Shown here: positions 23,100 through 29,597 of the stretch, piece after piece | Numbering within the stretch: the first letter of the stretch is position 1 | Layout of the letters: every line of letters begins with the position of its first letter | NCBI GenBank assembly: GCA_017510445.1 | Contig: JAFWNF010000002.1 | Span: forward strand, 52,294-116,293 | Direction: 5' to 3' | Length of the DNA stretch: 64,000 nucleotides | Source of the DNA: Candidatus Saccharimonadota bacterium | GTDB taxonomy: Bacteria > Patescibacteriota > Saccharimonadia > Saccharimonadales > Saccharimonadaceae | The notes under the pieces: generated by a model | Told to the model about the DNA's origin: nothing | The model's database searches: none | What the model saw: only the letters and a program-made list of their open reading frames with translations | Program-made: the position numbers and the translations under genes

Positions 23100-24800
23100 A
23101 TGAATAAAGACGTTATTTCTATTACCCCAGAGGATGATATTACAGACGTCATTGCTCAGATTAAGGCATCGGAAAAAAAGATCGTCGCTATCATTCCTCC
23201 CCAACCTGCTGGAATTCTCCGCAGTGTGGTTAATATTAAATTAATTGCAAAAGTCTCTGAAGAAGCCGAAAAAGTTCCAGTGCTTGTCACTTCTGATCCC
23301 GCAGTTTTGAAACTCGCGCACGAAATTCGTATTCCGGTCGCAGAAGATTTAAATTCTCGCCCACACGTGCCGACCCTAGAAGGTTTGAAGAAGCATGCTT
23401 CATCTGAAGATGAAAAAGCTGAAATTGCTGAAGATTTTGTTGCTCCAATCAAAAAAGATAAGGACGAAGAGGAAGATGACGAAGAGAAAGAAGAAAAGAA
23501 GAAAAAAAGCGACAAAAAATCCAAAAAAGATAAGAAAAAGAAAGTCAGCAAACTAGCACAGAAATTCCCATGGATCGCGGGTAAAGAAAAAATTATCTTG
23601 GCCGTAGCGATCCTAATCGTTCTTTTGGTTGGATTTTTGGTTTGGGCGCTCGTAATTGCTCCGTTTGTTGACATCTATATTAAGGTATCGGTCAACAACG
23701 AAAATAATTTCTCCCAGTCTGTAACCTTTACTGAAGACGAAAACGCCGAAGATGTTTCAGCAGGGAAGTTTTATCTTCAAACAGCCACCAAAGATTTTAA
23801 ACAAAGAATGAACTTTACTGCGACAGGGAAGAAAGACCTTGGCGATACTGCATCTGGCGAAGTTAGCGTCGCTTTGTTCTTTGACGATGACTACGAAGAG
23901 GATGGTGCAACAGTTAAAATTCCTTCTGGCACCCAATTTTCACTTGGCGAACTCAAATATGTTTCGACGAAGGAAGTTATTTTCGGATATGACGAAGAAA
24001 CTGAATGTGAAAATCTCGAAGGTCTAAGTGGCAATACGGCAAAAAGAGCTTTGAAAGATGAGGGTTGTCAAGTTACAAAAACCATCCCAATTTCTGCGTC
24101 TGAACCTGGTGAAAAATATAATATCGATGAGACTAAGGATACCTGGAGCGTTGCTCTTAACAAAGAGACAATTGTAGGATATGCGATTTTTAATGCAGGC
24201 AAGATTACTGGTGGAACCTCAAAGATTGTCACAATCGTCCTACAATCTGATGTCGATAAAGTCAAAGGTGATTTGTCGAATATAACAGAAACTGATGGCA
24301 AAAACGAACTATTTGAATCAATTTCTGATTCAAACATCATACTAGATACAACTTTTAAAGCCGAAGAGCCAACTTTTGAAGTCGCCCCAGCTGTTGGAGA
24401 AGAAGTCAAAGAAGGCACGACTCCTGTAGTAGTCGCCACAAGACAATTTTCTGTCAATACGATTGACGTCGCAAGAATTGAAGAATTTATCAAAGACAAT
24501 ATTAAACTTCCAGAAGATCAGAAAATCTATTCCTACGGTGAAAAATATATTGAGTACTTCTCAAAGACGGACGATGGTTATTCTGGAAAATTAAAAACAA
24601 CATATAAAACTGGCCCAAATATCTCTGAAGACATTATATTTGATAAGATTGCAGGTAGAAAAGTCGGTGATGCTCAATCAATCATTCGCTCTATCCAGGG
24701 AATAGATTCGTATGATGTAAAAATTGATACATCGATCCTTCTCAACACCGTTCCTACAGAAAAGGAACGTGTCAAAATAACGATTGATTTTAAGGAATAA
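23100..24800 (+). CDS. single-pass membrane protein with baseplate-J-like beta domains
   Basis: About 566 residues. N-terminal cytoplasmic alpha/beta domain (1-110; ITPEDDITDVIAQIKASEKKIVAIIPP), then a Lys/Glu/Asp low-complexity linker and one transmembrane helix (about 163-187). The large extracytoplasmic part includes DTASGEVSVALFF..IPSGTQFSL..SASEPGEKYNID, a pattern seen in baseplate J/gp47-like beta-sandwiches. A -10-like TATATT favours ATG 23100 over 23094. Start of a run 23.1-27.5 kb whose members overlap or abut, so it is probably co-transcribed with ruvX-mltG and the CHAP protein. Function unknown. Confidence 0.7.
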   Translation: MNKDVISITPEDDITDVIAQIKASEKKIVAIIPPQPAGILRSVVNIKLIAKVSEEAEKVPVLVTSDPAVLKLAHEIRIPVAEDLNSRPHVPTLEGLKKHASSEDEKAEIAEDFVAPIKKDKDEEEDDEEKEEKKKKSDKKSKKDKKKKVSKLAQKFPWIAGKEKIILAVAILIVLLVGFLVWALVIAPFVDIYIKVSVNNENNFSQSVTFTEDENAEDVSAGKFYLQTATKDFKQRMNFTATGKKDLGDTASGEVSVALFFDDDYEEDGATVKIPSGTQFSLGELKYVSTKEVIFGYDEETECENLEGLSGNTAKRALKDEGCQVTKTIPISASEPGEKYNIDETKDTWSVALNKETIVGYAIFNAGKITGGTSKIVTIVLQSDVDKVKGDLSNITETDGKNELFESISDSNIILDTTFKAEEPTFEVAPAVGEEVKEGTTPVVVATRQFSVNTIDVARIEEFIKDNIKLPEDQKIYSYGEKYIEYFSKTDDGYSGKLKTTYKTGPNISEDIIFDKIAGRKVGDAQSIIRSIQGIDSYDVKIDTSILLNTVPTEKERVKITIDFKE

Positions 24801-24801
24801 A

Positions 24802-26346
24802 GTGAAAATCATTGGACTCGATGTCGGCACCAAACGTATTGGTGTCGCGCGTGCCGATTCTTCTGTCAAAATCGCCATACCACAAGTTACAATTGAAGTG
24901 GACGGTACAGAATTTGAGCAAATAAAGCGAATCGCTCGTATCCAAGGCGCAAGTTTCTTCGTTATTGGGCTCCCACGTAACCTACAAGGCGAAGAAACTG
25001 CCCAAAGCCGTTATAGTCGTGAATTTGCGAAAAAACTCAAGAAAGAGCTAAAAGAAGCTAAAGTCGCATTCCAAGATGAGTCTCTGACTTCTATTGAGGC
25101 CGAAAATAATCTTAAGAATCGCAAAAAACCAATAAAAAAAGGCGATATTGATACAGAAGCTGCGACTTTAATCCTTCAAGATTTTTTAGAAAATTTTAAA
25201 GAAAATGATAATTTTTTAGAAGAAGAGAGTAAAATAGACAACATGGAATCAGATAAAAAAAAACCTAAACGCAAACACGCAACCCTAACAATTCTTATAA
25301 TATTTTTTATCGCTGGTTTATTTGGTGTCTTGATAATGTTTATGTATAACGGCTCTCTTACGGCCGTTGCTCAGTCGGACTGCGATAACCCGTCTTTTGT
25401 AGAGAATGAAGCATGCAAAATACAGGAAATCGTTATAGAGAACGGGATGTCGACTTCCGATATTGCGTCGGCTCTAAAAGAAAAAGAGCTTATTCAGAAC
25501 CCGCTCACTTTCCAAATCTATACGAAAATTAATGATTATTCTGACAAATTACAGGCTGGCATATATGGTTTCAACAAAACAATGTCCGTCCAGAAAATTA
25601 TTTCCATGATGGTGAACGGAGAGGTGATTGATGATTCTGTATATATAACCACATTGCCAGGCGGAACTTTGGCTGATTTTAAAGCGATTCTAATGAAAAA
25701 TGGTTTTTCTAGCACGGAGATAGACGAAGGTTTTCTTGCCGTCCAAAGCCATCCTGTTCTAGCTACGAAGCCACCTGAAGCTTCTCTAGAAGGGTATATT
25801 TTTGGCGAAACAATTGAATTTGATAAAGATGCAACAGTTGAAGAGATTACTTCTGCTTTTCTTGATGAACTTTACGATTTCGTTATGAAAAACAATCTTG
25901 AGGAGAAATTCGCTGAACGTGGATTAAGTTTGCATGATGGTGTAATTTTGGCGTCAATTATTCAAAAAGAGTCTCACGCTCAAGACATGAAGAACGTAGC
26001 TAGCGTTTTTTATAATAGGCTTAACGCGGGAATGAATCTCGGAAGTGACGTGACTGCTTCTTATGCAGTTGATCTTGTCGACCCAGGTAGAGATGTGTAT
26101 TCCGATAATGCATCCGTGCTTGCAATTGATTCTTGCTACAACACTAGAGTAAACGCTGGTCTACCTTGCGGGCCAATTTCAAACCCAGGGATAGATGCCC
26201 TTTTAGCCGTTGCTGAGCCAACCGATACCCCTTATCTTTACTTCTTGACAGGAGACGATGGTTTGATGTATTATGGTATTACAGAGTCTGACCATCAGTC
26301 AAACATTTCTGCCCACTGTCAGGAACTCTGTAATATTCAATTATGA
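24802..26346 (+). CDS. RuvX (YqgF) fused in frame to MltG endolytic transglycosylase
   Basis: 514 codons from GTG 24802 (RBS AAGGA, 1 base after the upstream stop). Residues 1-137 are YqgF/RuvX: IIGLDVGTKRIGVA, IGLPRNLQGEE, FQDESLTSIEA and DTEAATLILQDFL. After an acidic linker come a basic stretch, a transmembrane helix (about 165-188) and the YceG/MltG domain with GMSTSDIASAL, LEGYIFGETIEF, catalytic Glu in ASIIQKES, NPGIDALLA and YFLTGDDG. An internal ATG at 25243 is preceded by TAAAAT-7 bases-ATG and begins MESDKKKPKRK, so MltG may also be made alone. Confidence 0.85.
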   Translation: MKIIGLDVGTKRIGVARADSSVKIAIPQVTIEVDGTEFEQIKRIARIQGASFFVIGLPRNLQGEETAQSRYSREFAKKLKKELKEAKVAFQDESLTSIEAENNLKNRKKPIKKGDIDTEAATLILQDFLENFKENDNFLEEESKIDNMESDKKKPKRKHATLTILIIFFIAGLFGVLIMFMYNGSLTAVAQSDCDNPSFVENEACKIQEIVIENGMSTSDIASALKEKELIQNPLTFQIYTKINDYSDKLQAGIYGFNKTMSVQKIISMMVNGEVIDDSVYITTLPGGTLADFKAILMKNGFSSTEIDEGFLAVQSHPVLATKPPEASLEGYIFGETIEFDKDATVEEITSAFLDELYDFVMKNNLEEKFAERGLSLHDGVILASIIQKESHAQDMKNVASVFYNRLNAGMNLGSDVTASYAVDLVDPGRDVYSDNASVLAIDSCYNTRVNAGLPCGPISNPGIDALLAVAEPTDTPYLYFLTGDDGLMYYGITESDHQSNISAHCQELCNIQL

Positions 26347-28796: not shown

Positions 28797-28826
28797 AAAA
28801 ATGTTGTAAAAATTACAACATTTTTT
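28797..28826. repeat. palindrome TGTTGTAAAAATTACAACA, copy 1
   Basis: The 19-base core lies at 28802-28820. Here the arms extend to 13 bp (AAAAATGTTGTAA / TTACAACATTTTT, loop AAA) and end in T, so this copy could act as an A/U-only terminator after obg. Confidence 0.8.
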
Positions 28827-28838
28827 GTTGTTTAATAC

Positions 28839-28867
28839 TTGACAAAACGCTTATTTTTTTCTAATAT
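28839..28867 (+). promoter_or_regulatory. promoter of the small RNA
   Basis: TTGACA, 17 bases, TAATAT. Consensus-grade and free-standing, 57 bases after the obg stop. No open frame with an RBS follows; a structured RNA and terminator do. Confidence 0.8.
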
Positions 28868-28873
28868 AAACAT

Positions 28874-29012
28874 AAGCTGATACGCTTCACAGGGTTCCAC
28901 TGACAAGTTAGTGGAGTGTGGAGACTTTAAAAACAAACAGCGGATTAAAACAAACCAATGTGCCCTAGGGTGGGCGCGCATCAGCAAAAAATCGGCCTCT
29001 CGGCCGATTTTT
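28874..29012 (+). ncRNA. unassigned small structured RNA, about 139 nt
   Basis: Transcript inferred from promoter at 28839 to the terminator AAAATCGGCC-TCTC-GGCCGATTTTT at 28987-29012. Predicted fold: closing stem GCTGATACGC (28876-28885) with GCGCATCAGC (28976-28985), one A-C mismatch. Inside are hairpin 1, CTTCACA/TGTGGAG continued by TCCACT/AGTGGA, an A-rich unpaired linker of about 35 bases, and hairpin 2, GTGCCC/GGGCGC. This gives a three-way junction. It lacks SRP RNA, RNase P, tmRNA or tRNA hallmarks. A diverged 6S RNA is possible by size but the open-bubble shape is not evident. Confidence 0.7.
28987..29012. terminator. bidirectional terminator between small RNA and C39-like gene
   Basis: Stem ATCGGCC/GGCCGAT extended by A/T pairs with loop TCTC. 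A-run on one side and T-run on the other let it serve the small RNA on + and the uvrB operon on -. Confidence 0.9.
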
Positions 29013-29021
29013 AAGTTACGT

Positions 29022-29597
29022 TCAATGCTTGTTGAATAAAACACATTCTCGTTTTTCGATTGGCCCGAGAGCAAAGTCCTTATGCGATTCGGAGAAAAAG
29101 CGCTTCATTGAGACGACACGATTATAGGAAAACGGCTTATTAAAAACCATTCTTACATCTCGGTCATTGCGATAGTGATCTTTTCTCATATAGTATGGGT
29201 CAAAGATATAAACCTTTTTCTTTGTTATTTTTGTCACGATAATATAATGTTCGACTTCTTGCCATAATCTCACTAGAACTACCCCTTTTTGCTCTAGGCA
29301 TTTTGCGATTTTTTCTCTAGTTACATCTTCACTTTCTAACATCTCGCAGACAAGATTAAATCTATGCTCCGAAGAGAAATCATTCAGCCACTCAGTGATT
29401 TTTTCGACGGCTCGTTCACTCGTTCCGCCGTTGCCTTGATTTCCGCTTTTGTCGGAACGATCCAGCGCATATCTATAGATCTTTTTGACTAGAATTGCCG
29501 GAATCTCTTCTCTGTCAAAGAGAAAGCTCAAGCAATTCAGCAGTGATACTGCACCGCAATCAAATTCGGTAATTTGGAACCTTAACGGAATTTTCAT
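29022..29597 (-). CDS. stand-alone C39-like papain-fold cysteine protease
   Basis: 191 residues. N-terminal [16 protein letters not shown] (Cys14) matches the C39 peptidase start; EHYIIVTKI (His117) and YIFDP (Asp133) supply the other catalytic residues. There is no ABC transporter fused or adjacent, no membrane helix and no signal peptide, so it is not a standard bacteriocin exporter. Its ATG overlaps the uvrB stop, so it is translated as the second cistron of uvrB. Substrate unknown. A related non-peptidase C39-like role is possible. Confidence 0.7.

Follow-up and report, generated by a model that had tools for sequence, protein, structure and literature searches.

Among described bacterial RNAs, raiA and Ms1 are free-standing and lineage-restricted, belong to the abundant-RNA style, and have functions that were found late or are unknown. 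The H-type pseudoknot RNAs, such as preQ1-II and SAM-II, possess A-rich loops and reside in mRNA leaders. Here we describe an RNA gene of the Saccharibacteria (order Saccharimonadales), very small epibiotic bacteria that form a large group and have lost much else from their genomes. The gene lies in a 64-kb stretch of DNA, hereafter the window. On comparative sequence evidence, it is a predicted new class of free-standing non-coding RNA, near-universal and single-copy among the tested members of the order.

An RNA gene with its own promoter and terminator

The gene unit occupies positions 28839 to 29012 on the + strand and, as read from the sequence, comprises a predicted promoter, a 112-nt core, and a terminator. 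The TTGACA-17-TAATAT promoter of the original prediction is present as described, with its −35 element (TTGACA) at 28839-28844, a 17-nt spacer, and its −10 element (TAATAT) at 28862-28867. The strong terminator that had been claimed was likewise located at 28986-29012; an automated terminator scan missed it, and it is visible in the sequence itself. The features of the locus are the following:

about 28797-28827, +, terminator of obg, AAAAATGTTGTAAAAATTACAACATTTTTTG, read directly from the sequence; it insulates the RNA gene
28839-28867, +, predicted sigma-70 promoter, conserved in position across homologs
28874-28985, +, 112-nt core from the sequence, start approximate
28876-28885, +, 5′ strand of the closing helix P1, GCUGAUACGC; compensatory changes, with position 7 A-U versus G-C
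28886-28890, +, putative 5′ strand of P2, UUCAC, pairing with 28918-28922; from fold and alignment, window's family only
28891-28897, +, 5′ strand of the pseudoknot helix P4, AGGGUUC; compensatory pairs in the family and in other families
28898-28913, +, apical hairpin P2b, CACUG...UAGUG; from fold and alignment, long form only
28918-28922, +, putative 3′ strand of P2, GUGGA; from fold and alignment
28929-28955, +, A-rich single-stranded linker carrying AAAAACAAACA and AAAACAAAC in tandem; enriched in AAAYAAA
28960-28966, +, 3′ strand of P4, GUGCCCU; compensatory pairs
28968-28975, +, unpaired signature GGGUGGGC between P4 and P1, conserved across families of the order
28976-28985, +, 3′ strand of P1, GCGCAUCAGC; compensatory changes
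28986-29012, +, intrinsic terminator, AAAAAATCGGCCTCTCGGCCGATTTTT

Among 184 distinct homologous loci, a terminator lies 3′ of the RNA in 175, versus 40 when shuffled, and the mean promoter score is 10.0 versus 7.5 in shuffled sequence. Within the window's family, the −10 element most often ends 8 nt 5′ of P1 and the spacer is mostly 17 nt. The folding energy is −52.8 kcal/mol versus −33.9 ± 3.8 kcal/mol for 200 shuffles (z, −4.9). A protein-coding reading was rejected: linker and core lengths differ by single bases among close relatives, and the stop-free frames that are present, of 43 amino acids or fewer, are unconserved. The marks of an independent sRNA gene, namely a promoter and a terminator of its own and no conserved reading frame, are all found in the Saccharimonadales RNA. 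By comparison across homologs it is a predicted independent transcription unit, in line with the original description of a free-standing non-coding gene.

The placement of the gene between obg and the uvrB operon is correct for this genome, in which a convergent gene at 29022-29597 (weak peptidase-C39 match) and then uvrB lie downstream. It fails as a general setting, for what lies downstream differs among relatives in both gene identity and strand. Upstream, obg is the usual neighbor in two genera, that of the window and one other; neighbors on this side shift between clades, and ligA was seen at the locus itself or close by in several loci of other families. Elsewhere in the window, one open frame at 24784-26346, read from its translation, joins a RuvX/YqgF domain to a following MltG-like transglycosylase and is a possible fusion.

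A predicted frame of two covarying helices

Comparison shows P1 and P4 to be the predicted conserved frame of the RNA, with P4 probably forming a pseudoknot with the P2 hairpin in the window's family. P1 corresponds to the closing stem that had been proposed and is strongly covarying. For P1 and P4 together, 91.5% of the cells in 42 distinct alignment rows are paired, versus 75.4% when shuffled, and both sides have changed in 15 of 16 pairs (0 of 500 shuffles), although these cells count sequences and not independent events; sliding the partners abolishes the signal. Since the P4 strands of rows from outside the family were picked by best complementarity, the fair controls are a partner swap test and a count restricted to the family. 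In the family-only rows, which were not fitted to P4 and whose strands were taken by sequence motif, five pairs have changed on both sides (0 of 500 shuffles). In the swap test, the P4 strands of 31 homologs from other families scored 17.9 with their own partners versus 14.4 with swapped ones (SD, 0.56; highest of 200 swaps, 15.9). Swaps within the window's family alone are uninformative for P4 because the helix is almost invariant there.

Versions of P4 within the family include GGGG/CCCC, AGGG/CCCU, and CGGG/CCCG, the end pair being mostly G-C, with A-U in six distinct sequences including that of the window and C-G in one; GGGAC/GUCCC and CGGGUUU/AAACCCG are further versions. Other families have GCGGC/GCCGC, GGCUCUU/AAGAGCC, GGCUCG/CGAGCC, and more. 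In the window, P4 consists only of AGGGU/GCCCU plus one C-G pair past a U-U mismatch, and pseudoknot-free folding of this RNA favors a competing hairpin over it. The 5′ strand of P4 is enclosed by P2 in the window, which makes P4 a pseudoknot there; in families seemingly without P2, it is nested in the ordinary way. P2b is an extra stem of the long form, which occurs in the window's genus and genera close to it, and is missing from short-form relatives.

The original prediction had drawn a three-way junction, for whose three stems compensatory changes were to be sought among homologs. The closing stem passed, and the second hairpin, GUGCCC/GGGCGC, did not: it shows zero compensatory changes, fails in several rows from other families, and is absent in other families. 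Its GUGCCC strand pairs instead with the AGGG of the first hairpin, so that P4 takes the place of the second hairpin. A different pairing, CACC/GGUG around the 3′ strand of P4 (in L209, L218, L271, and other homologs from other families), could form a second hairpin, competing or kissing; it is weakly supported, 18 of 500 swaps reaching the observed value.

Two unpaired elements keep their sequence while the helices change theirs. The first, GGGUGGGC, separates P4 from P1 in nearly every homolog; part of the analysis used it as an anchor, which makes it look slightly more invariant than it is, but the covariance-model matches did not require it. The second is the tandem AAAYAAA loop, part of the A-rich single-stranded linker that had been predicted and that is borne out at 28929-28955. 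AAAYAAA occurs on average 1.6 to 1.9 times per linker versus 0.13 to 0.17 times when shuffled, in the window's family and in other families alike.

Distribution and novelty

An initial DNA search gave strong matches throughout the window's genus and further. Covariance models were built from the window's family (R1), from the short forms of that family (R2), and from other families only (R3). With R1, a match, as a rule a single one, turned up in 98 of the 104 genomes of the window's genus; across the family, almost every genus sampled gave matches, mostly one per genome. A model built from the window's family alone detects other families, and R2 and R3 extend the matches to most other sampled families of the Saccharimonadales. 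R3, which holds no sequence from the window's family, recovers the family's short-form loci at the coordinates given by R2, and this agreement on the same loci constitutes reciprocal evidence of homology. In support of orthology across families, many short forms and other families have tRNA-Ala downstream of the RNA. Oral relatives, for example TM7 HOT-348 (L091), have the RNA as well.

Outside the order, the best E value was 7e-4, in one of about 350 genomes, which is chance level; with uneven sampling and rough E values, the restriction to the order is an absence within the sample and not a proof. A match to a genome from a different order within the class (G210, L277; E value, 0.0013) was rejected, as it has no P4 next to the signature and no promoter and apparently lies within coding sequence. 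A P1-like stem with the GGGUGGGC signature, found around position 1500 of L279 (G234) without P4 or linker, is either a remnant or a chance match. For the 80 loci that were listed when GTDB genomes were scanned with an exact pattern, the titles nearly always read Saccharibacteria or Saccharimonadia. A few are generic (Patescibacteria, bacterium) and two name Nomurabacteria, and the contigs of these match genomes placed in the window's family. No exact pattern match was found in viral contigs. A lineage-specific RNA had been one of two options offered originally, and the covariance models bear it out with an order-wide range.

No Rfam 15 family reached its gathering threshold in the window, in 7 homologous loci, or in 20 diverse homologous loci. 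The best sub-threshold matches in the window are at chance level, and in the 27 homologous loci meaningful scores were obtained only for tRNA and tmRNA genes, with none at the RNA. No Rfam match to tmRNA, RNase P, or tRNA fell on the locus. The covariance search against Rfam that had been suggested as a check thus agrees with the original statement that the RNA, without SRP, RNase P, tmRNA, or tRNA signatures, belongs to no recognized family, and no description of it was found in the open-access literature searched. The RNA is categorically new in that it lies outside every family tested and is unmatched in Rfam and in the papers searched; its broad type, the lineage-specific structured RNA, has precedents. 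The class is almost certainly real and distinct.

Proposed function and alternatives

A near-universal single copy, an own promoter, and matched base changes over an entire order make the RNA very likely important to Saccharibacteria. Our best explanation as a whole is a new Saccharimonadales RNA class that acts in trans as a protein-binding RNA (probability, roughly 0.45). Its mechanistic part, protein binding, is tentative, and we would put it somewhat short of even odds. Helices P1 and P4 would hold GGGUGGGC and the AAAYAAA loop out for one or more proteins, and the RNA would scaffold or sequester the bound proteins, much as 6S or CsrB-type RNAs do. Where a clade has a divergent small RRM gene next door, the RRM protein would be the candidate partner; in the window's genus, apparently without this gene, the role would have to fall to a different protein that binds A-rich sequence or to an internal tertiary contact.

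The two conserved unpaired elements might just as well act as seeds for base pairing, and pairing with mRNAs is the main rival to protein binding. A trans-acting sRNA with GGGUGGGC or the A-rich loop as its seed would suit two elements that are both unpaired and conserved in an RNA with its own promoter and terminator. Tandem A-rich motifs are unusual for seeds, however, and the near-absolute conservation across families exceeds that of most sRNA seeds. Moreover, sites in the 64-kb window that are perfectly complementary to GGGUGGGC show no excess over chance once the gene's own other strand is set aside. We regard base pairing as unlikely, if still deserving of serious attention.

A narrower form of protein binding, in which the tandem AAAYAAA loop binds and titrates the neighboring RRM protein as in CsrB-like systems, appears improbable. 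At 41 of 59 short-form loci of the family, the upstream gene is divergent and encodes an RRM protein (RRM_1 domain; E value, 9.7e-25), and the RNA offers tandem A-rich sites. Against titration, the gene is absent from all five window-genus genomes tested, in which the RNA and its A-rich loop persist, and no RRM gene was found beside the RNA in other families, so that the RRM protein cannot be the general partner. A divergent pair can also persist through inheritance alone. The protein is small and single-copy, has a Gly/Arg-rich tail, and was seen in most genera of the family (L039, L044, L049, and about 40 other loci).

Control in cis is very improbable. A riboswitch or attenuator, that is, an aptamer and terminator controlling the next gene, would account for the terminator directly 3′ of the structure and for the tRNA-Ala often found downstream in short forms and other families. 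In the window, however, the next gene is convergent; the downstream genes differ in kind and strand among relatives instead of including a conserved same-strand gene, and in some relatives a TATAAT box stands between the terminator and the tRNA.

The second option offered originally, a very diverged 6S RNA, can be set aside with little hesitation. The size and free-standing nature of the gene suit it, as does the lack of any match over the cut-off to Rfam 6S in the order. It is refuted by the coexistence, in genomes that carry this RNA (G029, G222, G233, and G245), of separate 6S candidates at other loci, where RF00013 gives E values of 4e-5 to 6e-4, below the Rfam cut-off, and the typical GGGAGC...GAGGGCACCCACCU pattern is seen. 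RF00013 has no match at the locus of this RNA, whose architecture also differs: the frame is P1, P4, and a large A-rich loop of 40 nt, and no long helix with a central promoter-mimicking bubble was found. The candidates in L078, L252, L253, L254, and L255 are likely true Saccharimonadales 6S RNAs (26 to 32 bits versus a cut-off of 46.4); one directly adjoins rpmB on its upstream side, and another is no more than about 1 kb from that gene.

A stand-in for SRP RNA, a thought invited by the lack of recognizable SRP RNA in the order (none in 15 relatives), is scarcely credible, because the SRP RNA-binding M domain of Ffh was found in none of these 15 genomes, against 14 of 14 controls, which leaves no SRP protein to bind, and the sequence holds no S-domain motif. 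Both SRP RNA and the Ffh M domain seem to be entirely absent from Saccharimonadales (G000 and 14 relatives); for Parcubacteria, loss of SRP has already been published (PMC4508563).

Returning to protein binding, a further proposal is that the RNA is the core, of an unseen class, of an order-wide Saccharibacteria ribonucleoprotein with a housekeeping or global regulatory role; this is speculative, and we would sooner bet against it. If true, such a ribonucleoprotein would serve streamlined epibionts that appear to have lost SRP. The RNA gene is invisible to standard annotation, and its predicted structure is now specific enough for direct testing.

Comparison with known systems

Like bacterial SRP RNA (RF00169, RF01854), the gene specifies a small, housekeeping-like RNA; it differs in lacking a match to either model and an S-domain motif, and neither RNA match nor Ffh partner was found in the 15 relatives. 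With 6S RNA (RF00013) it shares a free-standing, single-copy, structured nature, a closing stem, and broad conservation within a lineage, but not sequence or model matches, having instead a short P1 and P4 with the 40-nt A-rich loop and occurring together with 6S candidates. The H-type pseudoknot RNAs resemble it in that a helix is formed with a hairpin loop and the joining A-rich strand could occupy a groove; in contrast to them, this RNA is free-standing, and its pseudoknot needs P2, seemingly missing in other families.

CsrB/RsmY-type RNAs likewise have their own promoter and terminator and repeat a single-stranded motif that is a potential protein site, and the tandem AAAYAAA is such a putative binding site here. 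The motif is AAAYAAA and not GGA, however, with only two copies, and the candidate partner is an RRM protein that does not occur in all clades: a partner in every RNA-bearing genome was not found, given its absence from the five window-genus genomes. With raiA, Ms1, and similar RNAs, none of which gave an Rfam match, the gene shares the abundant-RNA style and confinement to one lineage.
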